This document shows, one piece after another, positions 13,447 through 29,543 of a stretch of DNA of 42,918 nucleotides. Made by a program: the position numbers and the translations under genes. Each line of letters opens with the position of its first letter. Position 1 is the stretch's first letter. A model generated the notes under the pieces. That model worked only from the letters and a program-made list of their open reading frames with translations. It made no database searches and was not told where the DNA came from. The stretch covers positions 341 to 43,258 of the forward strand of contig JAGXNS010000008.1 in NCBI GenBank assembly GCA_019894855.1, written 5' to 3'. This DNA comes from Promethearchaeota archaeon (lineage in GTDB: Archaea > Asgardarchaeota > Lokiarchaeia > Sigyniarchaeales > SOKP01).

Positions 13447-14010
13447 ATGCAATTTGATAACGTAGACAAACAAATCATAAATGCGCTCTATCAGAGTGGT
13501 CGAGAGAGTTTAACTAGTTTAAAAGACATTATCTTCAAAAAAGATGACGAAACTATGAGCCATACAGGAATTGCTAAGAGAATTACAAAGTTAGAAGACA
13601 AAGATATTCTTAAGGTTCAAGGTAATATCAATATTAACGAAATTAACTATAAAACACTGTTCATACTCATGGAATGGAGCAACTACGAGGAAATAAAAAG
13701 TATAGTGAGCTCCTATTCTGAATGTCCAAGAGTTTTTTTGTTAGCACAAGTCACTGGTCAATATAATTTAATAATGGGTGTTCTTGGACAGAGTCTAGAT
13801 GTTCTACACAGATATGTAAATCACTGTGGCCCAACCAATAAAAAAGGATTATTACATTCAGCATTAATTTTCGGTTCTGATTTTATCAGACCAAAATATC
13901 TTCCCCTCAATCTTTTTAGCAACGAAAGTAATGAGCACAATTGCGGTAATATTTGTGTTGATTGTGAAGCCTATCTTGACGGTAAATGCGATGGATGTGG
14001 TAACTTCTAA
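13447..14010 (+). CDS. Lrp/AsnC-type regulator with C-terminal cysteine cluster
   Basis: A 187-residue regulator. Residues 5-60 form an Lrp-type helix-turn-helix (Asp-x-x-Ile-Ile-Asn-Ala-Leu...Gly-Ile-Ala-Lys-Arg-Ile), and residues 65-150 an RAM/ACT-like effector domain (Val-Thr-Gly-Gln-Tyr-Asn-Leu-Ile). The unusual part is the tail: C166-x3-C170-x2-C173-x7-C181-x2-C184, with Cys-Gly and Gly-Cys pairs similar to the DUF3795 metal-binding motif. It may bind zinc, an iron-sulfur cluster or heme, which would make the regulator redox- or metal-responsive. It lies 116 bases upstream of ccmC on the same strand and is a good candidate to control the Ccm genes. This link is inferred from position only. 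Confidence 0.88.
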   Translation: MQFDNVDKQIINALYQSGRESLTSLKDIIFKKDDETMSHTGIAKRITKLEDKDILKVQGNININEINYKTLFILMEWSNYEEIKSIVSSYSECPRVFLLAQVTGQYNLIMGVLGQSLDVLHRYVNHCGPTNKKGLLHSALIFGSDFIRPKYLPLNLFSNESNEHNCGNICVDCEAYLDGKCDGCGNF

Positions 14011-14126: not shown

Positions 14127-14834
14127 TTGACTTACAGATTAAAAAAAAACTCATATCTCCTTATAGTTTCTTTGTTATTATTGATAATCAATTTATTCTT
14201 GATTATTGGTTTAGCATCATTTGAAAGAATTGTGTATATAATATTTTTTTATCATGTATCAGCTGCTTGGTTGTCTTACTTTTCATTCGGTGTCAGCTTG
14301 ATAGGTCATCTATTATATCTTAAACAAAATAAGATGAACTGGAGTAATTTAGGAAAAAATAGCATAATAGTTGGAGTTTTTTTTGTTGCCTTTACGTTAA
14401 TAACAGGATCGCTATGGTTTAATGCGACTTCTGGCTCGTATAATAATATATACTGGCAATGGAGTGATGCAAGACAAACTACGACGCTAATATTATTCTT
14501 CTCCTATGTTTCATACTTAATATTTAGAAGCTTTATTGAAGATAGGGAGAAAAAAGCTAAACTTTCTGCGATTTTGGGAATAGTTTTTTTTCCGACCGTC
14601 CCTTTAAGTTACCTTTCAGCAATCCTTTTCACAAGTTTGCATCCTCTGATAAATCCCAATCCAGGCGAACCAGGAAATATATACTGGGATTCCATTAAAC
14701 TTTTTATTCTAATTTTTAACTTATTTGCTATAACTCTTCTATTTGTCTACTTGATTCGCGAATTGAAGGAGTTAGATATAGCGAAAGAAAAGTTACAAGA
14801 AAAATTATACATAAAAATGGAGGAAGGAAGATGA
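14127..14834 (+). CDS. ccmC: CcmC heme-handling membrane protein
   Basis: A 235-residue six-helix protein of the HHP (heme-handling) family. It has the WWD-type loop (Trp110-Gln-Trp-x-Asp114, then Ala-Arg-Gln-Thr-Thr) and the two heme-ligand histidines of CcmC, H43 in Tyr-His-Val-Ser-Ala-Ala-Trp and H172 in Ser-Leu-His-Pro. CcmC binds heme at the outer membrane face and loads it onto CcmE. The TTG at 14127 lies nine bases after a GTGAGGT ribosome-binding site; an ATA at 14124 is also in frame and better spaced. The stop codon overlaps the next ATG, giving tight coupling to the ccmD-like gene. Confidence 0.95.
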   Translation: MTYRLKKNSYLLIVSLLLLIINLFLIIGLASFERIVYIIFFYHVSAAWLSYFSFGVSLIGHLLYLKQNKMNWSNLGKNSIIVGVFFVAFTLITGSLWFNATSGSYNNIYWQWSDARQTTTLILFFSYVSYLIFRSFIEDREKKAKLSAILGIVFFPTVPLSYLSAILFTSLHPLINPNPGEPGNIYWDSIKLFILIFNLFAITLLFVYLIRELKELDIAKEKLQEKLYIKMEEGR

Positions 14835-14974
14835 GCGAGTTAATCTTAGATATAACTACAATAAGTATAAGCTATGTGCTATTTTGGTTATTGATTATAA
14901 TTCTAATTGTATATCCTAAATTATCAAAAAGAAAAGTTCAAAGAAGGCTTAATAGATTAAATCAAAGTAAGTAA
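14831..14974 (+). CDS. ccmD: CcmD-like small membrane protein
   Basis: A 47-residue protein with one transmembrane helix (about residues 12-29) followed by a strongly basic cytoplasmic tail (Lys-Arg-Lys, Arg-Arg, Asn-Arg), the layout of CcmD. CcmD stabilises the CcmABC complex and helps release holo-CcmE. It starts at an ATG overlapping the ccmC stop (ATGA), with a GGAGGAAGG ribosome-binding sequence just upstream, and lies between ccmC and ccmE exactly where ccmD is found in other genomes. Sequence similarity in this family is minimal, so the call rests on size, topology and position. Confidence 0.82.
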   Translation: MSELILDITTISISYVLFWLLIIILIVYPKLSKRKVQRRLNRLNQSK

Positions 14975-14977
14975 TCA

Positions 14978-15325
14978 GTGTTAAATGTGAGAAGATCGCG
15001 AATTGTTGCAGGTTTAGGGATCATTGGAGCAGTTAGTATCATTACAGTAATTTTGATTTTCAATTTCAGACCCTATCTTCAAATATCCCAAGTTTTTGAA
15101 GATCCATCAAGATACCATAATCAAGAAATTCAAGTAATTGGAATAGTAGAAGGGTATTCAGGAGGAAATTTCAATTTAACACAAGGTAATGATAAAATTT
15201 TTATTGATGTTTCAGATATTACAGTTCCTGATGATGTAGAGAATGGGATTCAAGTAGTTGTAATGGGCTGGTTTAATCAATTATTATACTTAAACGCAAC
15301 ACAAATTCTTGTGCAATGTAGCTAA
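14978..15325 (+). CDS. ccmE: CcmE heme chaperone, cysteine type with truncated tail
   Basis: A 115-residue protein: a cytoplasmic basic N-terminus, one signal-anchor helix (residues 11-30) and an exported OB-fold of about 80 residues (Gln-Val-Phe...Gln-Glu-Ile-Gln-Val-Ile-Gly-Ile-Val, then Val-Val-Val-Met-Gly-Trp-Phe). In classical CcmE the heme-binding His lies in a flexible tail (His-x3-Tyr); archaeal and some delta-proteobacterial forms use Cys-x3-Tyr. Here the tail ends at C114-Ser115, so the Cys is present but the Tyr and the rest are missing. GTG at 14978 is the start, three bases after the ccmD-like stop; a second GTG at 14987 is possible. It ends six bases from the convergent ccmB stop. 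Confidence 0.88.
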   Translation: MLNVRRSRIVAGLGIIGAVSIITVILIFNFRPYLQISQVFEDPSRYHNQEIQVIGIVEGYSGGNFNLTQGNDKIFIDVSDITVPDDVENGIQVVVMGWFNQLLYLNATQILVQCS

Positions 15326-15331
15326 TTTATA

Positions 15332-16057
15332 CTATTCAGATAATAGTTCTTCCGAAACTAATACTAAAATTGAAAACATCAGGATAACGTGAGCCACTAA
15401 AAACAAAATTTCAATAACTACCATTGAAATTAATTCACCTTCTAATAGTCTTATATTTAGCGATATAATAGGAGAAGTTATTGGAAGTATTATTGGGAAA
15501 AGTAATAAAGGTAAGACGAAAGATTTATTTTTTGAATACATTGATAAAGCGGAAACTAAAGTCCCACATATAGATATGTCCAGAGTAGGTAACACAATTC
15601 CTATTAAAATATAATACAAAAATTCATTAAAATTCAAAATTTGAACCGAAGGAACTGAGATAAAAAAACTAAAAAGAAGTAAAATCAATTCAATAAAACT
15701 TAATAAAATGAAACAAAAAACAACTTTACTAATTAGAAGAATGTTATTCGAAACTGGAGAGGATGTAAGCCCATCAAGTGTACCTCTTTCTTTTTCTTGA
15801 ACAAATAACTTGATCATTATAAAAATAAGCGTAAAGAAAATAATCAACCATATTTGAATAACAAATATCTCAATAGGCATCCTAACACCTAGATTAATTG
15901 TGTTATATGACGAAGAAAAAATAAATATTGAAATAATTCCAAACAAAATAATCGAAATGATGTCATTAGCTTGTCTAATTTCGGATTTAATATCCTTTTG
16001 CAGAATTGTTATGAAGAGTTTTCGGTCAGATTTAGCAGATTTCTTTTTGGTTTTCAC
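15332..16057 (-). CDS. ccmB: CcmB heme-exporter permease
   Basis: A 241-residue protein with six predicted membrane helices and the CcmB signature Glu-Lys-Glu-Arg-Gly-Thr-Leu-Asp-Gly-Leu in the first cytoplasmic loop, which contacts the ATPase. CcmAB uses ATP hydrolysis to release holo-CcmE from CcmCD. A GTG start at 16057 is fixed by an in-frame stop just before it, with AAGGTG eight bases upstream at the end of ccmA, so ccmA and ccmB are coupled. The length is close to that of bacterial CcmB (about 220 residues). Confidence 0.92.
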   Translation of the reverse strand: MKTKKKSAKSDRKLFITILQKDIKSEIRQANDIISIILFGIISIFIFSSSYNTINLGVRMPIEIFVIQIWLIIFFTLIFIMIKLFVQEKERGTLDGLTSSPVSNNILLISKVVFCFILLSFIELILLLFSFFISVPSVQILNFNEFLYYILIGIVLPTLDISICGTLVSALSMYSKNKSFVLPLLLFPIILPITSPIISLNIRLLEGELISMVVIEILFLVAHVILMFSILVLVSEELLSE

Positions 16058-16069
16058 TCAACTCGCACC

Positions 16070-16795
16070 TTAAAAGTAGGATTCAATTTTACTTCTGTCT
16101 ATCTCGTTTTTTAGAGCAAATTTACTTATTTTACCTCTTTTTAAAATTAAGATTGCGTCGCTAATCTCCTGAACAACCTCAATATTATGAGAAGCAATAA
16201 TCATTGTTAGGTTTTCCTTTTCCTTTAATTCTTTTAAAATTTTTATCAATAATTTTATAGTATTGAAGTCTAGTCCCAAAAAAGGTTCATCTAAAAGTAG
16301 TATTGATGGATCGTGGATTAATATTCGGATTATTTCCACTTTTTGTTTCATTCCAGTAGATAAGTTACTAATTGGTTCAAAAATCCAGTCAGAAAGGTTA
16401 AATTGCTCTGTGTAATGTTCAATTTTCTCTTTAAATGTATGTTTATCGTAGACTGAGTATAATTTACTATAAAATTTTAGGTTTTCATAAATTGTTAGCT
16501 CTTCATATAAAAACGATTTGTTAGTTAATGTTCCGATAATTTGTTTGATAGATTTATCATTTGTTTTATAATTCTTTCCTTTAAATACAACTTTACCAGA
16601 AGTTAGAGATGTCAAACCAGATAAGATTCTAATAAGTGTAGTTTTTCCTGCACCATTAGCACCAATTACACCCAAAATAGTACTTTCGTCTAAATGAAAA
16701 GATATTTTATTCAGAGCGTAGAAAAAACCATATTGTTTAGAAATATTATCACATTCTAATAAAAATGTATTAAAATTGCTCATAATAAACTTCAT
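16070..16795 (-). CDS. ccmA: CcmA ABC-type ATPase
   Basis: A 241-residue ABC ATPase: Walker A Gly-Ala-Asn-Gly-Ala-Gly-Lys-Thr-Thr near residues 42-50, signature Leu-Ser-Thr-Gly-Met-Lys-Gln-Lys, Walker B Ile-Leu-Leu-Leu-Asp-Glu-Pro, and the switch His in Ala-Ser-His-Asn. Assignment to CcmA rests on the adjacent ccmB, 12 bases downstream, and the presence of ccmC, D, E and F in the same island; by sequence alone it could belong to other exporters. A second ATG at codon 5 is an equally possible start. It lies 61 bases downstream of the large surface protein on the same strand. Confidence 0.9.
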   Translation of the reverse strand: MKFIMSNFNTFLLECDNISKQYGFFYALNKISFHLDESTILGVIGANGAGKTTLIRILSGLTSLTSGKVVFKGKNYKTNDKSIKQIIGTLTNKSFLYEELTIYENLKFYSKLYSVYDKHTFKEKIEHYTEQFNLSDWIFEPISNLSTGMKQKVEIIRILIHDPSILLLDEPFLGLDFNTIKLLIKILKELKEKENLTMIIASHNIEVVQEISDAILILKRGKISKFALKNEIDRSKIESYF

Positions 16796-16856
16796 TAAAG
16801 GTTAATTTAAGGCTGAATAAAAATTGTAATAAAAAATAATAAAATAAAAACAATTA

Positions 16857-19800
16857 TTATTTAAGAAATCGTTTTGGCCTAAGCGAATTTACTAGAACTA
16901 CTGCCAGAGCCCCTAATATACCTAATGTACTAAATACCACAATTGATTCAAAATCTTCATCAGCCATACCATTATTTCCGTCTTCACCTTGCATATTCAC
17001 CATAATTGTATCACTTATTAAATTCCAATTACCGAGTGAATCTCTAGCATAGATAGTATAACTCAAAATACCTGTGTTGCTTGGTGTCCAATTATCTATA
17101 CTCCAAGTATCTCCGATCACATTGGTCATCGTATAGTTAGAATTTTCAAACTCAATGAATACATCATTTATACCAGATAAATCTGTAATATCAACTTGAA
17201 CAGATATCGATTGTCCTAAGAAAATTGATTCTGCGCTTTTAATAATGTTGAATAATGTAGGACCTACTGTGTCTGTAACAGTAATATTTCTATACAATGA
17301 AACTTTGTTATCGCTTGTATCATTTGCATGAATTACGTAAGACTTTAATCCGATAATTGTTGGATTCCAGTTGCTATATTCCCATGTTGTTCCACCAATA
17401 TATACCATAGTATAATTCAAGCCCCCAAGTTCTATTAGCACATGACCGATTCCTGATAAATCGGTTGCATCAATTTGAATTGTTTCAACTTGACCTAATT
17501 CTAATGGATCCGCACTTTCAACCAAATTTGTTAATGTTGGATAACTTGTATCTATTACAGTAATGTTATTGCTCACAAAATCCCAATTATTGTTTGAATC
17601 CTTTCCATATAATGTATATGATTTTGTACCTATGGAATTTGGAATCCAACCGTTATATTGCCAAGTCACGCCACCTATATTTGTCATTGTGTAATTAGCG
17701 TTTCCAATTTCTATCAATACCATATTTATTCCAGATATATCAGTAGCATTAATTAGGATAGTTTCGATCTCACCTAATTCTAATGGATCTGCACTTTCTA
17801 TTAGGTTTGATAATACTGGTTGTATCGTATCTTGAACTGTTATTGAATCGATTAATAGATTCCAATTTCCTTCCGTGTCATTTGCGTAAATTGTATACAA
17901 TTTTAATCCAGTAGTACTTGGGATCCAGCTATTGTATTCCCATGTCGATCCATTTAGATGATTCATAGTATAATTCACACCATCAAGTTTTATCATCACA
18001 TGACTGATTCCTGATAAATCACTAACATCAACTTGAATAGTTCCCCATTGTCCTAATTCTAACGGATCTGCATTTTCATATAGGTTAGATAAACCCGGGC
18101 CATTTGAATCTAATATCGTAATATTATTGTTCAGAGAATTCCAATTTCCGTTAGAATCATTTGCGTAAATCGTATAAAATTTTAATCCAGAGGCATCTGG
18201 AGTCCAGGTATTATATTCCCACGTATTACTACCTATGAATCCCATGGTATAATTCACGCCATCAAGTTCTATTAGTACATTACTTATTCCAGATAAATCA
18301 ATGACATTAATTTGAATTGTCTCTGTCTGACCTAATTCTAACGGATCCACATTTTCAAATAAGTTAGATAAAACAGGACCGCTTGTATCTACAACTGTAA
18401 AATTCGTGGTTAAAGAAATTCCGTTATTGCTCGAATCATTCGCGTAAATTGAATAGAATTTTAAACCCGTACTACTTGGAATCAAGTTGTTGTATTCCCA
18501 AGTTTTGCTACTTATTTTTGTCATAGTATAATTTACTCCTTCAAATTCAAGCAACACCAAACTTATAGAAGCTAAATCAGTAATATTAACCTGAATCGTT
18601 TGACTTTGTCCTAATTCTATTGGATCGTATTCTTCATATAAGTTTGATAATTCCGGTGATATTGTATCTATTACTTCAATAAAACCGACTGTACTATTCC
18701 AATTATTCGAATTATCCTGGATAAATATAGTATATGAATAAATATCAACAGCCTCAGGAACCCATGTATCATTTACCCATGTATTACCTCCAAGATTAGA
18801 CATTGAATAATTCACACCATCAAATTCAATTTTAACTTGATTGATACTTGATAAGTCTGTAGCATCAATAGAAATTGTTACAATATTTCCCAATTCTATA
18901 GGATCGCTATTTTCTATTAAATTTTCATAATTTGGAGGTGTTGTGTCCTGAACATAGATATTATCACTTAATTGATTCCAATTATTTAAAGAATCATTAG
19001 AGTAGACTGTAAACAATTTCATCCCAATTAAATTAGGTGTCCAGGCATATTCATATATGATTCCACCAATATTTGCCATCGTATAGTTTTGTCCCCCGAT
19101 TTCTATAAATACATCACTAATCCCCTCAGTATCATTAACATCAACTTGAATAGTTTCGATTTGACCTAATTCTAAAGGATCTGCACTTTTAGATATGTTT
19201 TGAATTGTCGGACCCGAAGATATGATAACTTCAATAGAACCTGCTGTTGTATTTAAATTGTCGCTATTATCTACCATGTAAACGATATAATTAAAAATTC
19301 CTGTGGATGTTGGCTTCCAATTTGACCATGACCAAGTGTCGAATCCCATAAAAATCATAGTGTAATTAATATTGTTATATTCTAGAATTACATCCTTCAA
19401 TCCAGAACCTGGACTGTCATAAACTTTAATGGAAATTGTTTCATTCTGACCAAGTGGGAGCGGATCAGCACTTTCAATTAAATCGGAATATTTCGGTGCT
19501 TTAGTGTCTTCTACTGTGATATCATTTAATACTGAATTCCAATTGCCTTCAGTGTCATTAGCATAAATAGTATAATATTTTAATCCTGCAGTTGTTGGTG
19601 TCCAACTATTAAATTCCCAGGTTGTACTACTAATTTTCGTCATCGTGTAATTTGAACCACTGATTTCAATTAACACGTGACTGATACCAGATAAATCAGT
19701 AGCATTGATTTGGATCGTTTCTGTTTGTCCTAACTCTAAAGGGTCTCCGCTTTCTACCAAATTTGTTAATGAAGGTTGACTTGTATCTTGAACTGTTATT

Positions 19801-21398
19801 GAATCGCTTAAAGTATTCCAATTGCCTTTAGTATCATTTGCAAAAATGTTATAAAATTTAAAACCGGTAGACAATGGCGTCCAACTATTGTATTCCCAAG
19901 TTGCGCTACTGATTTTTGTCATCGTGTAATTTACGCCACCAATTTCTATAAGTACGTGACTAATACCTGATAAATCAGTTGCATTGATTTGAATCGCTTC
20001 TGCTTGACCTAGCTCTATAGGATCAGTATTTTCAACTAAATTAAAAAGAGACGGAAGAGTAGTATCTTGAACTGTAATTGAATTACTTAAAGAATTCCAA
20101 TTTCCTTTAGTGTCGTTAGCATAAATACTGTAACCTTTTACTCCCACTGATGTCGGACTCCAGGTATTAAATTGATACGTGTTTGTATCAATTTGGTTCA
20201 TGCTATAATTCGCACTTTCGATTTCAATTAACACATGACTGATACCAGATGGATCTGATACATTGATTTGAATCGTTTCTGTCTGTCCTAACTCTAGAGG
20301 ATCTGCACTTTCCACTAAACTTGTCAATGAGGGTTGGACAGTATCTTGAACGGTTATTGAATCAGTTAAAGAATTCCAATTTCCCTCAGTATCGTTCGTA
20401 AAAAGAGTATATAGTTTCAATCCAGTGGTAACTGGAATCCAGCTGTCGTATTCCCATATTGTCCCACCAATATTTACCATCGTGTAATTTGTGTTTTCAA
20501 TCTCTATTAAAACCTGACTGATACCAGATAAATCTGTTGAGTTGATTTGAATCGTCTCTGTTTGACCTAACTCTAAAGGATCTGCGCTCTCAATTAAATT
20601 AGCCATGGTTGGATTTGTAGTATCAATTACGTTAATACTTCCATTTGTTGAATTCCAACTTCCATTTGTATCATTAGCATAATAGATATAATTCTTTATG
20701 CCAACAGTATTTGGAGTCCAATTGTAATTGTATGTGTCTCCAACAGTGTTAACCATAGAATAGTTAGTACCTTCTAATTCAATAAAGACTTCACTAATAC
20801 TTGATTCAGAATCAACAACATCAACTTGAAAAGTTTCTTGTTGACCTAATTCTAAAGGATCGCTACTCTCAAGAATATTGATAAATTGAGGTGGTGTATT
20901 TTGTGATTCTACAGTAATGATAAAATCTCCATGAGCAAAATATGAGGATGAACCTCCCGCCCTGTAAATTGCATCAGAATGGAGAGTATAAGTTTGTTCC
21001 GTTGCTGGTGCAGTAACTTGAAAATCTATAGTAACTGAATCTCCAGAACCACTTATAGAAGCTGACTGTTGAGTAGAATCAAAGGAAAAATCCTTATTAT
21101 CACCTAAACCAGGCGATCCGCTAGGAAAACCTACTTCAATACTATTCCCTTGAGCTTCAGTGAAACTTAACACTTGAATAGTAATTGTAAAAGTTTCACT
21201 TGGATCTACGGATGAACCTGAACTTGACGATAAAGATACATAGCCACTAGTGCTTTCTGTTATATTTCCATGGCAACTTGAATGGCCTTCTCCAGTAAAA
21301 TCGTTGAATTGACTCGTTCTGGCTATTACAAGCCCCGTAATCGATAAAAACAATATGGTTGTGATTAAAAAAGATGAAATTTTCTTGTTTATTTTCAT
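16857..21398 (-). CDS. 1513-aa surface protein: HxxCH domain, 14 repeats, C-terminal membrane anchor
   Basis: An exported protein with a signal peptide (residues 1-26), a candidate single-cysteine heme site H39-S-S-C42-H43-Gly, and a beta-sandwich domain to about residue 165 that resembles the bacterial 'choice-of-anchor V'/Reeler-like domain, where the equivalent motif is Cys-x-x-Cys-His. C42 is the only cysteine in the whole protein; H140 and H156 could be distal heme ligands. Fourteen repeats of about 93 residues follow, each with Asp-Pro-Leu-Glu-Leu-Gly-Gln, Asp-Leu-Ser-Gly-Ile and Asn-Tyr-Thr-Met, rich in Asn-x-Ser/Thr sequons. Residues 1486-1504 are a membrane helix followed by a basic tail. 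The protein should project a heme-bearing tip far from the membrane. It lies between ccmF and ccmA, in their orientation. AAGGAG and AAGGGG sequences precede the ATG. Confidence 0.93.
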   Translation of the reverse strand: MKINKKISSFLITTILFLSITGLVIARTSQFNDFTGEGHSSCHGNITESTSGYVSLSSSSGSSVDPSETFTITIQVLSFTEAQGNSIEVGFPSGSPGLGDNKDFSFDSTQQSASISGSGDSVTIDFQVTAPATEQTYTLHSDAIYRAGGSSSYFAHGDFIITVESQNTPPQFINILESSDPLELGQQETFQVDVVDSESSISEVFIELEGTNYSMVNTVGDTYNYNWTPNTVGIKNYIYYANDTNGSWNSTNGSINVIDTTNPTMANLIESADPLELGQTETIQINSTDLSGISQVLIEIENTNYTMVNIGGTIWEYDSWIPVTTGLKLYTLFTNDTEGNWNSLTDSITVQDTVQPSLTSLVESADPLELGQTETIQINVSDPSGISHVLIEIESANYSMNQIDTNTYQFNTWSPTSVGVKGYSIYANDTKGNWNSLSNSITVQDTTLPSLFNLVENTDPIELGQAEAIQINATDLSGISHVLIEIGGVNYTMTKISSATWEYNSWTPLSTGFKFYNIFANDTKGNWNTLSDSITVQDTSQPSLTNLVESGDPLELGQTETIQINATDLSGISHVLIEISGSNYTMTKISSTTWEFNSWTPTTAGLKYYTIYANDTEGNWNSVLNDITVEDTKAPKYSDLIESADPLPLGQNETISIKVYDSPGSGLKDVILEYNNINYTMIFMGFDTWSWSNWKPTSTGIFNYIVYMVDNSDNLNTTAGSIEVIISSGPTIQNISKSADPLELGQIETIQVDVNDTEGISDVFIEIGGQNYTMANIGGIIYEYAWTPNLIGMKLFTVYSNDSLNNWNQLSDNIYVQDTTPPNYENLIENSDPIELGNIVTISIDATDLSSINQVKIEFDGVNYSMSNLGGNTWVNDTWVPEAVDIYSYTIFIQDNSNNWNSTVGFIEVIDTISPELSNLYEEYDPIELGQSQTIQVNITDLASISLVLLEFEGVNYTMTKISSKTWEYNNLIPSSTGLKFYSIYANDSSNNGISLTTNFTVVDTSGPVLSNLFENVDPLELGQTETIQINVIDLSGISNVLIELDGVNYTMGFIGSNTWEYNTWTPDASGLKFYTIYANDSNGNWNSLNNNITILDSNGPGLSNLYENADPLELGQWGTIQVDVSDLSGISHVMIKLDGVNYTMNHLNGSTWEYNSWIPSTTGLKLYTIYANDTEGNWNLLIDSITVQDTIQPVLSNLIESADPLELGEIETILINATDISGINMVLIEIGNANYTMTNIGGVTWQYNGWIPNSIGTKSYTLYGKDSNNNWDFVSNNITVIDTSYPTLTNLVESADPLELGQVETIQIDATDLSGIGHVLIELGGLNYTMVYIGGTTWEYSNWNPTIIGLKSYVIHANDTSDNKVSLYRNITVTDTVGPTLFNIIKSAESIFLGQSISVQVDITDLSGINDVFIEFENSNYTMTNVIGDTWSIDNWTPSNTGILSYTIYARDSLGNWNLISDTIMVNMQGEDGNNGMADEDFESIVVFSTLGILGALAVVLVNSLRPKRFLK
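16988..20894 (-). repeat. Array of 14 coding tandem repeats (about 279 bp each)
   Basis: Fourteen imperfect repeats of an immunoglobulin-like or cadherin-like beta-sandwich unit lie within the 1513-aa protein. The most conserved block encodes Asp-Pro-Leu/Ile-Glu-Leu-Gly-Gln. Copies differ at many codons, so the array is old or diversified and is not a recent slippage product. Its length may vary between strains. Confidence 0.9.
21270..21284 (-). other. HxxCH candidate heme-attachment motif (surface protein)
   Basis: Codons CAT TCA AGT TGC CAT encode H39-S-S-C-H43 about 13 residues after the predicted signal-peptide cleavage. The Cys-His pair matches the second half of a c-heme site; the first cysteine is replaced by histidine. 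The same arrangement occurs at 23744-23758. Confidence 0.6.
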
Positions 21399-21730
21399 TA
21401 AAACCCCTTTTTCTCCTTAAAACTAAAGATTTAAATGCTCCTTAATTGCATTTCTTTTTTTTAATAGTTTGAACAAGTTCATTTTGAATTTGAACTTATC
21501 AAATATATTATAAATTTACTTAATTTGAAGAAATTTCTTATAATTTATAACTTTTATTAAATCGGGTTAATTTAAACAATCAAATCGACCTTAGATTCAT
21601 TTTTAAACTATAATTGATTATTGAGTTTCAATTTGAATTAATTTTGAACGATTGTGTTTTGAGGTTCTATCCAAATTAAAATTAAGACAACTACTAAAAA
21701 GATACATTTCTTAATCTATTCCATAGATTT
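21399..21730 (-). other. Intergenic region between ccmF and the surface-protein gene
   Basis: About 330 bases with no gene. It contains a TATA-like stretch near 21504-21514 (read on the minus strand) and AAGGAG/AAGGGG sequences just before the ATG of the surface protein, suggesting that this gene has its own promoter instead of depending only on ccmF read-through. Confidence 0.5.
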
Positions 21731-23443
21731 TCATTTTAACTTATTTCTCCTGATAAAAAAAAAGATAAAAATAGAGGGAATTATTCCACCCATGAAAAAA
21801 ATAAACCCCGAAATGTAGAAAATATCTTGAAATATCCATGCCCCTGGTTCAATTAAAGTCCCAATTAATATTAACGATAAACCTATATGTACATAAGTTT
21901 TCGAATTTATTCTAAAATACTGCTTTAAACTCGTATCCTTGTCAAAATCCTTTATTAGTTTCAAAATTGAAGATAGTAATGATATAATAAATATTGAGAT
22001 CACGGGATTTATCCAGACACCAGAAATGGAAAATACCACAAAGGAGATTATAGTTTGTAATATTCCTCCTATAGTTAATATTATAGCTATTACTTTAAGC
22101 TTATATGCCCCATAAAGAGAACAAAAAACTAATGATGTAGCCAATACAGATGCTAATATTAATGTTGTTATAATGAAGTAATCTGTTCCCACATATAGGA
22201 CATTTATATTAGAAAAAAGAGAAAGGAAATATGTAAGAGGAGAAATTAATAAACCAAATGTACAAACAAAGGCAAGCATAAACAAGCATAAATAACTTAT
22301 ATAATCTAAAAAGAGTCTTGTTTTCTTGAAATTTTCAGATAAAGAATTCAATGTGTCATAAATCACATAAAGTGAAAAACCAACTAATATAGAACCAACT
22401 ATTAAAGTCCAAATAATAAGATTATTTTCGCCTGTAAAGGCATGCAATGATGTTAAGCCTCCTCCTCGCGTGATTAAGGTAGAAAAAACTATTGATAAAA
22501 AAATCAATATAACATTAATTTTTACAAGTTTACTGTTAATTTTCTTAAAGGTTATCGTGTGAAAGTAAGCTGTACTAAAGAACCAAGGGATAAGCGAAAC
22601 AGTTTCAACAGGATCCCATCCCCAGTACCTACCCCATGTCAATGCTATTTTTGCCCAATATGCTCCCAATCCTATACTTAAAGTCAAAACTAACCATCCA
22701 AACTTCAAGCTAAAATCGTAAAAAGATTTCTGATATGTATTTTGTAACGATAGATTTGGACTTACCATCCTAAAAATTGAAATAGTAAAAGGAATTAAGA
22801 AAATTGAGTAAGCTATAAATGTAAATAAGGGATGCCATATCATAAATGGTGACAATAAAAGAGGATTTAAACCTGATCCGTTAGGAAATATAATTGGAGG
22901 CTCTATTTGAAAGGGATTATAGATAAATAAAATTATTAGAAAGACCGAAGAAATTAGCATAGATAATATAGTTGACATTATAAAGACAGCGTCATCTCTA
23001 TTTTGATTCTTGAGCCTATAGAAGAAAATAACTATAGTATTAAATACCATCCAAGTCATGATTGAACCTGCTTCGCCAGCCCAAATTGCTACAAATTTGT
23101 ATATAAGTGGGAGAGTAGTTTCACTATAGCTCCAAACATATATAATATCAAAGTAGTCGTTAACAAAGCAATATTCAAGGAGGAAAAATAAAGAAATTGA
23201 GAAAGTCATGCTCAAAGAAGATAAAAGATAAATATTTCTTTTAACTTTTAGAAGATAAAAAAGATCTACCGCAGTAATTAAGATAGTAGAGATGATTAAG
23301 ATGTTCCCAAGAAATGAAATGACTAATATTTTGATATTTAGCCCGAATAGATCTAAAACGAGAGGAATAACAATAACGATACTGAGGATCACAATTAAAT
23401 CAATAAGTAATATCTTCTTGAGTGAAGAGTGATCAAACTTCAT
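21731..23443 (-). CDS. ccmF: CcmF cytochrome c heme lyase, shortened periplasmic part
   Basis: A 570-residue multi-helix protein of the HHP family. The WWD signature is at Trp270-Gly-Arg-Tyr-Trp-Gly-Trp-Asp-Pro-Val-Glu, and the four heme-coordinating histidines of CcmF appear to be kept: H204 (Trp-His-Pro), H295 (Tyr-Phe-His), H334 (Thr-Ser-Leu-His-Ala-Phe) and H519 (Val-His-Ile-Gly). CcmF transfers heme from CcmE to apocytochromes. Bacterial CcmF is about 650 residues with a large external loop between the last two helices; here that part is reduced to about 15 residues, which fits with no CcmH partner being encoded nearby. It is the first gene of the minus-strand Ccm set, divergent from the 23645 gene. 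Confidence 0.94.
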   Translation of the reverse strand: MKFDHSSLKKILLIDLIVILSIVIVIPLVLDLFGLNIKILVISFLGNILIISTILITAVDLFYLLKVKRNIYLLSSLSMTFSISLFFLLEYCFVNDYFDIIYVWSYSETTLPLIYKFVAIWAGEAGSIMTWMVFNTIVIFFYRLKNQNRDDAVFIMSTILSMLISSVFLIILFIYNPFQIEPPIIFPNGSGLNPLLLSPFMIWHPLFTFIAYSIFLIPFTISIFRMVSPNLSLQNTYQKSFYDFSLKFGWLVLTLSIGLGAYWAKIALTWGRYWGWDPVETVSLIPWFFSTAYFHTITFKKINSKLVKINVILIFLSIVFSTLITRGGGLTSLHAFTGENNLIIWTLIVGSILVGFSLYVIYDTLNSLSENFKKTRLFLDYISYLCLFMLAFVCTFGLLISPLTYFLSLFSNINVLYVGTDYFIITTLILASVLATSLVFCSLYGAYKLKVIAIILTIGGILQTIISFVVFSISGVWINPVISIFIISLLSSILKLIKDFDKDTSLKQYFRINSKTYVHIGLSLILIGTLIEPGAWIFQDIFYISGFIFFMGGIIPSIFIFFFIRRNKLK

Positions 23444-23644: not shown

Positions 23645-24550
23645 ATGAAAAAGAAAATTTTTGTGCTATTTATCATAATGATTAGTTTACCATTATTGCT
23701 ACTGTTCCTGAATGGAAGTGCATATCCAAGTCAAGAATTAGACCATGAAATTTGCCATACAGTGCCCGGAGGATATACAATTTCAGCTGATATAAGTGGC
23801 ACCATTACCGTAAATCCCTCTGATGTTATAGTTTTTAATATAACTGCCACTGGAACCAATTTATTTGTTCAAGCTCCTAATGAAAACACGAGCATAATGC
23901 AAAATGGGCATTTAATGATTACGCCTACTACTGATAAAATATGGGATGACTCTGGAGAAGATAAAGATTCTAATCCAAATGTGATGATTATTACTTTTAA
24001 TATTACAGTTCCTGAAACAGTAGGTTTTTACAATCTTTTCATACTAGCAGGAGACAACTCATCAGCCTCCGGTGTACCACCCGATTTTGCATATATAGAA
24101 ATTGGGTTTAGTGTTGGAGGAGTTGCCCAACCTGAACCTGAGATTGTAATATTCGATCACTTTGGATTAATTCTCGGCATGTCTGCTTTGTTACTTCTTT
24201 CTGTTGGAACTATCCTCGTATTAATAAACGAAAACAAATTTGTGAAAATCCATGGAATATTTAGTGGAGCTTCTTGGATATTAACATTGATCAATGCTAT
24301 TTCTTTGATTACCCTCAATAAAAATGAGCTTCCATTTGAAGAATTAATCCAAATTTGGTTTTCTTTTGATCCTTTCCCCGTTCATGTAATCCATATCATT
24401 TTAGGTGCAGTGGGATTATTTACAGGACTTCTTAGCATGTTGTTTGGCATAGCTGCTGAGCGTAAATACGCTAAACTTACAGGATATATTACTTTGATTT
24501 GTTGGTGGACAGGATTCTTTTTAGGTCTTATATTAGTTCCCTTATTTTAA
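23645..24550 (+). CDS. HxxCH domain fused to four-helix histidine-rich membrane domain
   Basis: A 301-residue exported membrane protein. A signal peptide (residues 1-26) is followed by H34-E-I-C37-H38, the same HxxCH motif as in the 1513-aa protein, then a beta-sandwich (residues 43-160) with a matching strand pattern (Val-x-Pro-Ser..., Ile-Thr-Phe-Asn-Ile-Thr-Val-Pro, Tyr-Asn-Leu). The C-terminal part has four membrane helices with H172, H203, H247 and H250 near their ends, reminiscent of cytochrome b561/DOMON-linked proteins; K278-Leu-Thr-Gly-Tyr occupies the last helix start. C37 is the only exported cysteine. I infer one c-type and one or two b-type hemes, making it a transmembrane electron carrier. 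AAGGATT precedes the ATG, and a flavoprotein gene follows 17 bases later. Confidence 0.88.
   Translation: MKKKIFVLFIIMISLPLLLLFLNGSAYPSQELDHEICHTVPGGYTISADISGTITVNPSDVIVFNITATGTNLFVQAPNENTSIMQNGHLMITPTTDKIWDDSGEDKDSNPNVMIITFNITVPETVGFYNLFILAGDNSSASGVPPDFAYIEIGFSVGGVAQPEPEIVIFDHFGLILGMSALLLLSVGTILVLINENKFVKIHGIFSGASWILTLINAISLITLNKNELPFEELIQIWFSFDPFPVHVIHIILGAVGLFTGLLSMLFGIAAERKYAKLTGYITLICWWTGFFLGLILVPLF
23744..23758 (+). other. HxxCH candidate heme-attachment motif (b561-like fusion)
   Basis: Codons CAT GAA ATT TGC CAT encode H34-E-I-C-H38, just after the signal peptide. As in the surface protein, histidine stands where the first cysteine of Cys-x-x-Cys-His would be. Confidence 0.6.
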
Positions 24551-24567
24551 ATGGAAGTGTTAAAAAA

Positions 24568-26073
24568 ATGAATGAGACAATAACTAAGGAAAAAGTAAAC
24601 GGGAAGTTAACTCGAAGCCCGAGCAAAGTAAAGAAAAGGGGAAAAAAGCGTAATTTCGAGGAAATTGTTAAAGAATTCATTTCCCCATACCATGTAAGCA
24701 CTAATAGATACGAACTTGAATCTGCATCTGCTGACCTTACATCATTACCCTCGTATCATTACAAATTTAAAAAAAATTATCTTGCGAGTATCATTGTTCG
24801 ACCTGCTGATACAGAGAGCTTATCCCTATTAATTAAGAAGTGTTGGGAACTTTCACTACCTATAACAATAAGAGCTGCCGGTACATCATGCTTTTCCTCA
24901 GCAACTCCAGCTATGGGGGGCGTGATAATTGATATGCGTCGTATTAACAAAGTTGAGCACATCGACACTGAAAAAATGACGGTTAGAGTAGGAGCGGGAA
25001 TATCATGGTTAAATCTAATGGAGAAACTTTCAGATTACGGGCTTGCACCTAAAGTTTACCCAACTAGTTTCAAAACTTCTTGTGTGGGTGGTTTCATTGC
25101 AACGCCTGGGAAAGCAGGAATCGGGGTGCCAAAGTATGGTACAATGGCCGATTCAATCATATCGTTAACATTAGTTCTTCCTAATGGGAAAGTCGAACAT
25201 ATTTCGAAGGATTCGAATGGAGAAATATCACTTGATGATATCACTGGAACTTATGGTATATACGGTGCGATCTCAGAGGTAGAGTTATCTCTTACAAATT
25301 TACAAACTTCGTTAGAGATTGCAGGCTATGGATTTTCCTCTCTTGAAGATGCAGTTAATTATTATAAAGCCCTACTAAGTAAAGTACCGGATAAACCATT
25401 TTTTCTTTCTATTTCAGAACGAAAATTTGAACAATACTCACACATCAATTTTCCAAGTCAGGATTGGTTGGTTTGGGCCGTTTATTACGATGATCCCGAA
25501 GTAACTATTAGAAGTATCTCAGCGGCTGAGAACCTAGCTCAAAATTTGAAAGGTATCAAAGTAGATGAATCTTATTTAAAAGAAAAATGGCGCGACATTA
25601 GTGATGCTGAAGTAGCTATAGGAAGGACGAGTAGGAATATTATCTTCCAAGAATATTGGATTTCAAATGAGAATCTATTGTCCTTCTATGAGAGTTATTT
25701 GAAAAGAGCCAGTAAGTATAAATTTCCTATTGCAACTTATACGATTTCTGGGGAAGAAGGATGGAGCCGAGTAAAAGTGTTTGGCCTCTCAGATATTACT
25801 AGACCCATCGAATTTTTTTCTGTCAAGGCATTTTTGCACGATTTGTCAATGGAATCTTTTAAACAAGGGGATAGCCTCTACACTATTGGGATAGTTAATA
25901 CCTTTTATTTGCTAAAATATCGACGTGAAGTTGTAAATCAAAGGAAAATATTGAAAAAAAAGGTAGATCCTAAAGATTTGTTTAACTCCTATCGTATAGT
26001 TAAAGCTAGAATGAAACACTGGCGTATTTCACTACTCTTTACAACAGCAAAATTACTATATAAAATTTTTTAA
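24568..26073 (+). CDS. GlcD/FAD-binding-4-type oxidoreductase
   Basis: A 501-residue flavoprotein with the FAD-binding-4 (vanillyl-alcohol-oxidase-type) fold: Pro-Ile-Thr-Ile-Arg-Ala-Ala-Gly-Thr-Ser near residue 85, Met-Thr-Val-Arg-Val-Gly-Ala-Gly-Ile-Ser-Trp, and Gly-Gly-Phe-Ile-Ala-Thr-Pro-Gly-Lys-Ala-Gly. The C-terminal end has Lys-Lys-Val-Asp-Pro-Lys-Asp-Leu-Phe-Asn, the usual family close. Such subunits oxidise 2-hydroxy acids such as lactate or glycolate, or related substrates, and pass electrons to a GlcF/HdrD-like protein, which is encoded next. The N-terminal 40 residues are very basic. The ATG at 24568 is chosen over an upstream TTG at 24499 that lies inside the preceding gene; GGAAGTG is the ribosome-binding site. 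Confidence 0.92.
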   Translation: MNETITKEKVNGKLTRSPSKVKKRGKKRNFEEIVKEFISPYHVSTNRYELESASADLTSLPSYHYKFKKNYLASIIVRPADTESLSLLIKKCWELSLPITIRAAGTSCFSSATPAMGGVIIDMRRINKVEHIDTEKMTVRVGAGISWLNLMEKLSDYGLAPKVYPTSFKTSCVGGFIATPGKAGIGVPKYGTMADSIISLTLVLPNGKVEHISKDSNGEISLDDITGTYGIYGAISEVELSLTNLQTSLEIAGYGFSSLEDAVNYYKALLSKVPDKPFFLSISERKFEQYSHINFPSQDWLVWAVYYDDPEVTIRSISAAENLAQNLKGIKVDESYLKEKWRDISDAEVAIGRTSRNIIFQEYWISNENLLSFYESYLKRASKYKFPIATYTISGEEGWSRVKVFGLSDITRPIEFFSVKAFLHDLSMESFKQGDSLYTIGIVNTFYLLKYRREVVNQRKILKKKVDPKDLFNSYRIVKARMKHWRISLLFTTAKLLYKIF

Positions 26074-26208
26074 CTAAATATTAGAATAATTATAGGGACG
26101 AGCAAATATCATAAAAGAATGGCTCAAATAAAATATAACAATTAAAAATAACTATGTAAAACCTTTTCTTGAAATTGGTTACTAATAAAAAGAACAGAGG
26201 TTAAAAAT

Positions 26209-27588
26209 ATGAGTGAAGGTAAAGATAAAAAGGACATTCGCAATGTTGTAACAACAGGTCCACCAGTTGCTGGTTTAGTTTCTCCGTCTAGAGAGAATTT
26301 AATTGAACCAAAAACAAAAGAAAAAGAAGAAAAATTCGGTTATGATCGTTGTACTCATTGTGGGTATTGTCGTCATGTTTGTAAAGTCTACAATACTTCT
26401 TGGTCAGAAACTGATTATGCTGGGGGACGAAATAGAATTATTAAAGCATTAGATCGTAAGGATATCAAGTTCGATAATGAAGAAATAATACCCTCTGTTT
26501 TTCGATGTATGCTCTGCGGGAATTGTAAAGTAGTTTGTCCTGTAGGAATTGATACACTTGAAGTATTTCAGAATTTTCGTAAAACCGTTGTTAAAAAGGG
26601 TGCCATGCCAAAAAAGTTAATAGGGCTTCGAAAATCAATACTTGACAATAATAATCCTTTTCTTGAACAACATACTGATAGGTTTAATTGGTGTGAGGGT
26701 TCCGAAGAAGGTAAACTAGCTTATGAACGAGCAAAAGAAGAACTTGCAAAAATTGATAATACACTTGCAGCTGGAGATATAGAGGCAAGAAAACAAAAAA
26801 TCCATAAAGTTGGTTACTTTGTTGGTTGTACATCGTCTTATCGAAATAAAGAACTGGTCAATGCAACAAGTTCAGTTTTAGGAAAGCTGGGAATTGAATT
26901 TGTTGTTTTTCCGGAAGAAAGATGCTGTGGATCGGTATTATTTCGGACAGGATTAGAGGATGACGCTTTAGAGCTCGTTAAACATAACTATAACATGATT
27001 CGTGAAAGCGGGGTTTCTGAAGTTGTTTTTTCATGTTCAGGATGCTTTTCGACATTTACTTTAGAATATACGAAGTTTGCTGGAGGAAACTTAGGTTTTG
27101 ATCTTCTTCATTTAACGCAATATGCCTTGAAAATTGTAAAAGAGAAGAACCTAAAAATAAGGTATACCAAACGAACAAAAGAAGACCCTCTGTTGATTAC
27201 TTATCACGACCCTTGTCATTTAGGGAGATATTGTGGAGTTTATGAAGAACCACGAGAATTACTTCGAATGATTGAAGGTATAAAATTATTTGAAATGAAA
27301 CATAATAGAGACATGTCTTGGTGTTGTGGCGCAGGAGGCGGAGTTAAAGCTCTGTATGGAGATATCGCTGGCGAGATCGGAAGAGATAGAATAAATGAGA
27401 CTCGTACGTGTATGGTAAGGATACGTGAGGATCGTTTGAAAGAGGCATTAGAAACGAACGCTGAGGCTTTGGTGAGTTCATGCGTGTTTTGTAAGAATAA
27501 CTTGTTCCAAGTAGCAAACGAAGATAATTCTCTGATAAAAGTGATTGACATTTCCCAACTTTTAGACGATTGTGAATTTTATCAGTAA
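26209..27588 (+). CDS. HdrD/GlcF-like iron-sulfur oxidoreductase subunit
   Basis: A 459-residue protein with two [4Fe-4S] ferredoxin motifs (Cys-Thr-His-Cys-Gly-Tyr-Cys-x3-Cys near residue 48; Cys-Met-Leu-Cys-Gly-Asn-Cys-x3-Cys-Pro near residue 104) and two CCG domains. These include Arg-Cys-Cys-Gly-Ser...Cys-Ser-Gly-Cys and Asp-Pro-Cys-His-Leu-Gly...Trp-Cys-Cys-Gly-Ala...Ser-Cys-Val-Phe-Cys, which bind clusters of the HdrB/HdrD type. This architecture is shared by heterodisulfide reductase HdrD, glycolate oxidase GlcF and GlpC. Next to a GlcD-like flavoprotein and a b-heme-like membrane protein it most likely carries electrons between flavin and membrane. The 45-residue N-terminal extension is not part of the family core. 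GAGGT precedes the ATG at good spacing. Confidence 0.93.
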   Translation: MSEGKDKKDIRNVVTTGPPVAGLVSPSRENLIEPKTKEKEEKFGYDRCTHCGYCRHVCKVYNTSWSETDYAGGRNRIIKALDRKDIKFDNEEIIPSVFRCMLCGNCKVVCPVGIDTLEVFQNFRKTVVKKGAMPKKLIGLRKSILDNNNPFLEQHTDRFNWCEGSEEGKLAYERAKEELAKIDNTLAAGDIEARKQKIHKVGYFVGCTSSYRNKELVNATSSVLGKLGIEFVVFPEERCCGSVLFRTGLEDDALELVKHNYNMIRESGVSEVVFSCSGCFSTFTLEYTKFAGGNLGFDLLHLTQYALKIVKEKNLKIRYTKRTKEDPLLITYHDPCHLGRYCGVYEEPRELLRMIEGIKLFEMKHNRDMSWCCGAGGGVKALYGDIAGEIGRDRINETRTCMVRIREDRLKEALETNAEALVSSCVFCKNNLFQVANEDNSLIKVIDISQLLDDCEFYQ

Positions 27589-28667: not shown

Positions 28668-29543
28668 TTAATATTTATTTCGTTTCCATATCAAGGCTGA
28701 AATTATACTAATTGAAACTAATAATACCGGATATATAATTACTTCTAGCAAAGCAGGATTAGCATTATACCCAAAGAGAGCTTTTAGTAGTGCACCTATA
28801 ATCTCCAAAAATTCAGGGGTTGCTGGATTTCCATCGGGAAAGCTTTCAGGTAATACATGTTTAATATTCCATACTTCTCCAATAATCGGATTAATTATTC
28901 CTGCTTCAATAAATTCGTGAATTCCATATGTAATTAGCCCAGCAGCGAATAATATTAGCATTATATTTGTTATTTTAAAAAATAATCTCAAGTTTATTGA
29001 TTTTATACCATAAAAAATTAATAATCCAATGAGAATCGAGATTACTAAGCCAATGATAGATCCTAATATAACGCTTACTTGATTTAAAGAGCCTATAGAT
29101 GCAGCACCAGATGTGAGCAGAACTAATTCAATTCCTTCTCTAATTATAATAATAAATGTGGTTATCGAAATTGAGAATACTTTTTGTGTATTAATAGATT
29201 CTTCTACTTTTCCTTCGAGATTTTCTCTCATCTTAGGGCCTTCCTTGCTAACCCATAAAACTAAGGTTAAAATGAAAATCCCTGAAATAATAAATGTAGT
29301 TCCCTCAAAAATTTTTTCAAGTATTCCAGTAAATCCACCAAATACTGTTGAGAATATTATAGCAAATACAACGCTCGCAGCTATAGCTAGAATTATTCCT
29401 AAATACACGTATTTATAATAGATCCTTTGGTTAGTCTTCCTTAAGTATAATAAAATTATTACTACTACTAATACCGCTTCTAATCCTTCCCTCAGTGCTA
29501 AAAATATCGGAATTGATAAGTCAACAAATGATATCTGATTTAT
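28668..29543 (-). CDS. FTR1-family high-affinity iron permease
   Basis: A seven-helix iron permease with both family motifs: Arg-Glu-Gly-Leu-Glu at residues 18-22 and Arg-Glu-Gly-Ile-Glu at 135-139, which bind and pass iron ions. The first motif is essential, yet no ATG, GTG or TTG lies upstream of it in frame; the nearest canonical start (GTG 29408) would delete it. The frame is open from 29549, and ATA at 29543 (nine bases after a GGTGAT) gives a 291-residue protein with a normal N-terminus. Alternatively ATG 29560 is the start and one A is missing from the run read at 29548-29551. It is probably iron-regulated by the palindrome at 29616-29635. Substrate is ferrous or ferric iron. Confidence 0.88.
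   Translation of the reverse strand: MNQISFVDLSIPIFLALREGLEAVLVVVIILLYLRKTNQRIYYKYVYLGIILAIAASVVFAIIFSTVFGGFTGILEKIFEGTTFIISGIFILTLVLWVSKEGPKMRENLEGKVEESINTQKVFSISITTFIIIIREGIELVLLTSGAASIGSLNQVSVILGSIIGLVISILIGLLIFYGIKSINLRLFFKITNIMLILFAAGLITYGIHEFIEAGIINPIIGEVWNIKHVLPESFPDGNPATPEFLEIIGALLKALFGYNANPALLEVIIYPVLLVSISIISALIWKRNKY

Follow-up and report, generated by a model that had tools for sequence, protein, structure and literature searches.

Cytochromes c that hold their heme through a single thioether bond have been described as unique to Euglenozoa, whose mitochondrial cytochromes c carry the single-cysteine motifs AAQCH or FAPCH and are diagnosed by a pyridine hemochrome band at 553 nm (PMC8262978). 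For archaeal System I (Ccm), CcmABCEF have been reported to be sufficient, and archaeal CcmE has been stated to carry CXXXY universally (PMC9084895). In this work we describe a locus in a Promethearchaeota archaeon, lying within a window (the whole stretch of DNA analysed) of 42,918 nucleotides, in which a set of three genes is found next to a modified Ccm system (Table 1). Among named relatives, the closest is the Candidatus Lokiarchaeota MAG RDOA01000040.1. We infer the heme content, the single thioether bond, the formation of a complex and the direction of flow; taken together, the set probably encodes an outward electron-transfer complex which ends in a single-cysteine heme c made by the modified CcmABCEF.

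Table 1. Features of the window, with positions counted from its first nucleotide.
Feature	Position	Strand	Description
Membrane subunit gene (gene 1)	23645..24550	+	301 aa; signal peptide, extracytoplasmic beta-sandwich with HEICH, four TM helices
HEICH (residues 34-38)	23744..23758	+	Proposed one-cysteine heme c site; His34 at the first-Cys position of relatives
Four-helix domain with four invariant His	24158..24544	+	Proposed heme b domain; AF2 pLDDT 89
GlcD-like FAD subunit	24568..26073	+	FAD_binding_4; without HxGDGN metal motif
GlcF/TfrB/HdrD-like Fe-S subunit	26209..27588	+	Two 4Fe4S motifs, two complete CCG (noncubane cluster) motifs
CcmC	14127..14834	+	PF01578 and TIGR01191
CcmE	14978..15325	+	PF03100 1e-07; ends QCS-stop, without CXXXY tyrosine
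CcmB	15332..16057	-	PF03379 4.7e-10
CcmA-like ABC ATPase	16070..16795	-	
1513-aa surface protein	16857..21398	-	HSSCH in N-terminal choice-of-anchor V domain; Ig-like repeats; TM at C-terminus
HSSCH of 1513-aa protein (residues 39-43)	21270..21284	-	
CcmF heme lyase (WWD and histidines retained)	21731..23443	-	

The three open reading frames lie where the sequence-only reading had placed them, with 17 bases between the stop of gene 1 and the ATG of the GlcD-like gene and 135 bases between the latter and the GlcF-like gene; the external motif of gene 1 reads HxxCH and not CxxCH. The GlcD-like frame stands as described, but the listed version of 524 residues takes as its start a TTG that lies within gene 1; translation more likely begins at the ATG at 24568. 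The same order of four-TM protein, GlcD and GlcF was found in G003, G007, G064, G052, G059, G047 and G083; it is kept within genus and family, with gaps that are mostly short or overlapping, and its recurrence far exceeds chance. Genomes of the other family in which a full-length b561-type gene was read have GlcD directly downstream, and in G071 GlcD and GlcF form one fused gene, which argues for a shared function of the two. The earlier claim of an electron-transfer trio was upheld, and the trio is conserved: a flavin subunit is joined by an Fe-S subunit of the HdrD/GlcF type and by a membrane subunit whose four helices carry invariant histidines and which is fused to an external domain. That reading had overlooked the Ccm genes, the exchange of Cys for His and the breadth of the two-cysteine layout among Asgard archaea. 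A paralogous locus with the same gene order (L039, G000:C81, 5691-10154) lacks the external domain and adjoins a UbiA prenyltransferase (CtaB-like) and a 510-aa membrane protein without assigned function.

The two soluble subunits share with GlcDEF, D-lactate dehydrogenase, TfrB and HdrDE the combination of a FAD_binding_4 protein (Pfam, E 1.2e-32), a Fer4 and CCG partner and a membrane anchor. The GlcF-like protein matches Fer4_8 plus two CCG stretches (Pfam, 9e-34), and its sequence has both CCG motifs in full (C207, CC239-240 and C276/C279 in the first; C336, CC372-373 and C425/C428 in the second). The set differs from these enzymes in that its scores fall far under the equivalog cut-offs, its anchor bears an external domain and the HxGDGN metal motif is absent, as it is from all nine GlcD-like proteins checked; given this absence, the hydroxy acid that had been suggested as substrate was not confirmed. 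In the scheme that we propose, the cytosolic GlcD-like flavoprotein would oxidise a substrate, and the GlcF/HdrD-like subunit, with its 4Fe4S and CCG clusters, would relay the electrons to a heme b of the four-helix domain, liganded by some of the invariant histidines. From there they would reach a heme c carried by the external beta-sandwich and then an external acceptor, perhaps by way of the 1513-aa stalked HxxCH surface protein. This heme c of Lokiarchaea would be held by one thioether bond to the cysteine of H-X2-4-C-H, with the following histidine as axial ligand, and its attachment would be catalysed by the neighbouring modified CcmABCEF. Flow in the inward direction, in which an external donor would reduce the heme and the HdrD-like subunit would reduce a cytosolic disulfide or the GlcD substrate, is an unlikely alternative that nevertheless carries some weight: HdrD-type CCG subunits can reduce disulfides, as established for HdrDE, and a variant in G053 and G017 pairs a like membrane protein with HdrB/HdrC-like proteins. 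The paired GlcD-like flavoprotein, however, suggests a substrate dehydrogenase, and no external donor enzyme is encoded alongside.

The distribution of the one-cysteine motif was addressed by searching 228 genomes of the phylum with a profile built from the external domain. Every sequence read from the other Asgard family (f8) carries CX2CH, CX3CH or CX4CH; this two-cysteine form of the layout is widespread in Asgard archaea, and one other-family ortholog of this kind has CcmF as a neighbour. A first cysteine at these spacings, the motif of c-type cytochromes, occurs in none of the 19 Lokiarchaea domains, HEICH included, and most of them have a single cysteine, so that a cysteine pair is impossible. 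Instead, 12 of the 19 have histidine in the first-cysteine position (seven HX2CH, one HX3CH and four HX4CH), the remainder being AATLGCH (two), AATLSCH, NDNCH, CNCH and two CxxGH proteins; the membrane proteins of G053 and G017 are among those without the histidine (AATLGCH, AATLSCH). The full-length alignment places this histidine in the cysteine column for both spacings present, and 12 such histidines would arise by chance with a probability of about 7e-10 at 2.5% His, calculated ignoring shared ancestry; the tree is compatible with one origin of the Cys-to-His change as well as with two. Among membrane proteins the cysteine and histidine of the motif are invariant down to 25% identity. Two points count against a heme here: the alignment of 15 full-length orthologs shows no obvious distal ligand, Met or His, that the external domains have in common, and the motif region is of low confidence in the structure model. 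A fold search with the whole gene 1 model matched only Ig-like sandwiches. A Pfam search of gene 1 gave no Reeler match, and the proposed membership of the Reeler family was not borne out. Counting CxxCH patterns genome-wide was uninformative, many of the matches listed being chance or zinc-site matches. L065 (G020) and L032 (11295-12179) encode secreted proteins in which CSAYH or CAHEH, both recalling CxxxH, stands close to the N-terminus; these are possible further single-cysteine heme candidates.

The five ccm genes span 14127-23443 with the 1513-aa gene interleaved, and CcmF adjoins gene 1 in divergent orientation. CcmA, B, C, E and F, the same five components as in Methanosarcina acetivorans (PMC9084895), are all present in the window with intact reading frames, while no CcmD, CcmH or CcmI was seen there. 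Unlike the Methanosarcina system, the Lokiarchaeal CcmE has no CXXXY tyrosine, ending instead in QCS-stop (G000, G007, G017, G052 and G064), and the putative substrates lack CxxCH; further CcmE copies in G053 and G017 end YCCDRS(T/G)GV, and the CcmE of the control genome G083 has CPSKY. The 1513-aa protein is a second candidate heme protein: its domain is of the same type as NCBIfam choice-of-anchor V (NF041895; E=2.9e-06, under the curated cut-off), but it carries HxxCH in place of two cysteines, and the gene 1 membrane protein gives no match to this family. An Lrp-like protein with a C-terminal Cys cluster and no Pfam match (window 13447-14010) is possibly a regulator, and in several relatives (L030, L031, L116 and L120) its gene again neighbours ccm or the GlcDF genes. 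At locus L034 (G053:C1, 7465-18999) a tandem CcmF pair adjoins two secreted CxxGH proteins (CGSGH and CDTGH), together with a choice-V protein carrying HDYMGCH, after which a CcmE copy follows; the membrane protein is paired here with a multi-TM HdrC-like protein and not with GlcD/GlcF, and at the sister locus L035 an HdrB-like protein is also found, replacing GlcD/GlcF.

When Ccm presence was scored by strong CcmC or CcmF matches (in G017 and G053 other ccm genes are present as well), the system was found in eight of 117 relatives, all of which carry the external domain (G000, G003, G007, G017, G052, G053, G064 and G083), and the association is strong (Fisher p ~7e-11 over the 117 relatives, phylogeny ignored). 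Within the genus four genomes have both and 20 have neither. The contigs of G007 and G017 stop where CcmF would be expected. Counting against the reading, the domain occurs without detected Ccm in two genomes, G047 and G071, both of them incomplete, in which CH is kept and the first-position His is missing. A dedicated maturation system, as expected for c-type cytochromes, is encoded in the genome by the CcmABCEF genes of the window. Family searches, to which the absence of other cytochromes refers, found no PF13435 multiheme cytochromes in the seven Lokiarchaeal Ccm genomes, as against two such proteins in the control G083 (one encoded next to the ccm genes), and no PF13442 cytochromes in ten genomes. 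The siroheme decarboxylase PF17805 was not found above cut-off in 21 Asgard genomes, including G083 with its canonical multiheme proteins, and heme may therefore be imported; the heme synthase profile TIGR04545 was discarded, matching generic radical SAM proteins in all genomes and none over the cut-off.

The adjacent Ccm genes and the two-cysteine orthologs lend strong, if indirect, support to the external heme predicted by the sequence-only reading, although its covalent attachment, by the single cysteine, is something that we infer from these orthologs and from the co-occurrence with Ccm. That H-X2-4-C-H might instead bind a non-heme metal (copper, zinc or iron), the complex still being redox and Ccm serving other cytochromes, appears improbable. 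His-Cys-His is a usual soft-metal ligand set, the histidine is kept in 12 of the 19 domains and no distal heme ligand was identified, but the histidine sits exactly at the place of the heme cysteine of the orthologs at each of three spacings, Ccm tracks the external domain, and the PF13435 or PF13442 cytochromes that Ccm might otherwise serve were not found in these Lokiarchaeal genomes.

The histidines H172, H203, H247 and H250 of the membrane domain are all present in the gene 1 protein as had been noted, and do not vary across 21 aligned four-TM domains or across 15 full-length orthologs from two Asgard families; H247 is missing from the divergent G053 and G017 proteins. The AF2 model of this domain is a confident four-helix bundle. 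Since the signal peptide places the beta-sandwich outside, H203 would lie towards the inner side of the model, and H172, H247 and H250 would be close to its external surface. Each chain could in this way carry a single heme b on the outer side, and any second heme would depend on different ligands or on a partner. With three of the four histidines near the outer end, the classical two-heme pairing of b561 is not obvious. The domain shares membrane helices with conserved His and weak profile matches with cytochrome b561 and DUF420 (CtaM), but every match is under cut-off: Cytochrom_B561 reached at best E=0.0068, in only two of 21 members, and DUF420 E=0.012, at 14.7-16.4 bits against a Pfam gathering score of 30.5 (the connection between DUF420 and heme A synthase is itself contested; PMC8239418 versus PMC12808453). 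The window protein has no Pfam b561 match, and a fold comparison of the domain with the PDB returned nothing significant (best E=0.35). Membership of a b561 or ferric reductase family was accordingly rejected. A ferric reductase for iron uptake, on the analogy of Reeler/DOMON-b561 proteins and feeding a nearby permease, would accord with the FTR1 gene at 28668-29408, which is nearby also in G007, but is similarly improbable, as the regions around the set that were read in G064 and G052 showed no FTR1, and no b561 or Reeler match reached threshold.

A variant of the single-cysteine heme c, which we regard as quite improbable, is that the histidine replacing the first cysteine bonds covalently with the second heme vinyl to give a mixed His-Cys heme c, and that the CxxGH proteins of G053 may bind heme solely via the other cysteine, served by a second CcmF of their own. 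Such a bond is conceivable because bacterial CcmE forms a His-heme bond (PMC3601427), and it would represent a new class of heme attachment. Decay of the site, with the first cysteine lost by drift and the Ccm genes a remnant, would explain a motif that differs among lineages (CNCH, NDNCH, CxxGH) and the patchiness of Ccm in the genus, but is very unlikely given that C and H do not vary among membrane proteins sharing as little as 25% identity, that His takes the Cys place at the same spacing and that the ccm frames of the window are intact.

A single-cysteine heme c in Lokiarchaea would have in common with the Euglenozoa cytochromes c (PMC8262978) the loss of the first cysteine of CxxCH and the retention of Cys-His, but the fold and the domain of life are different. 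The first residue is Ala or Phe and the spacing fixed at two in Euglenozoa, whereas in Lokiarchaea it is mostly His and the spacing varies; furthermore, the kinetoplastid proteins are matured by KCCS and not by System I, whereas the Lokiarchaeal set adjoins Ccm. Surveys based on CxxCH would miss the Lokiarchaeal HxxCH proteins. If our reading is true, Ccm can be retuned to one cysteine, which would give a reason for these Ccm systems managing without the parts that reduce a CXXCH disulfide. It would also point to outward electron transfer in Lokiarchaea, and would place a prokaryotic single-thioether cytochrome, a product of System I, among the closest archaeal relatives of eukaryotes.
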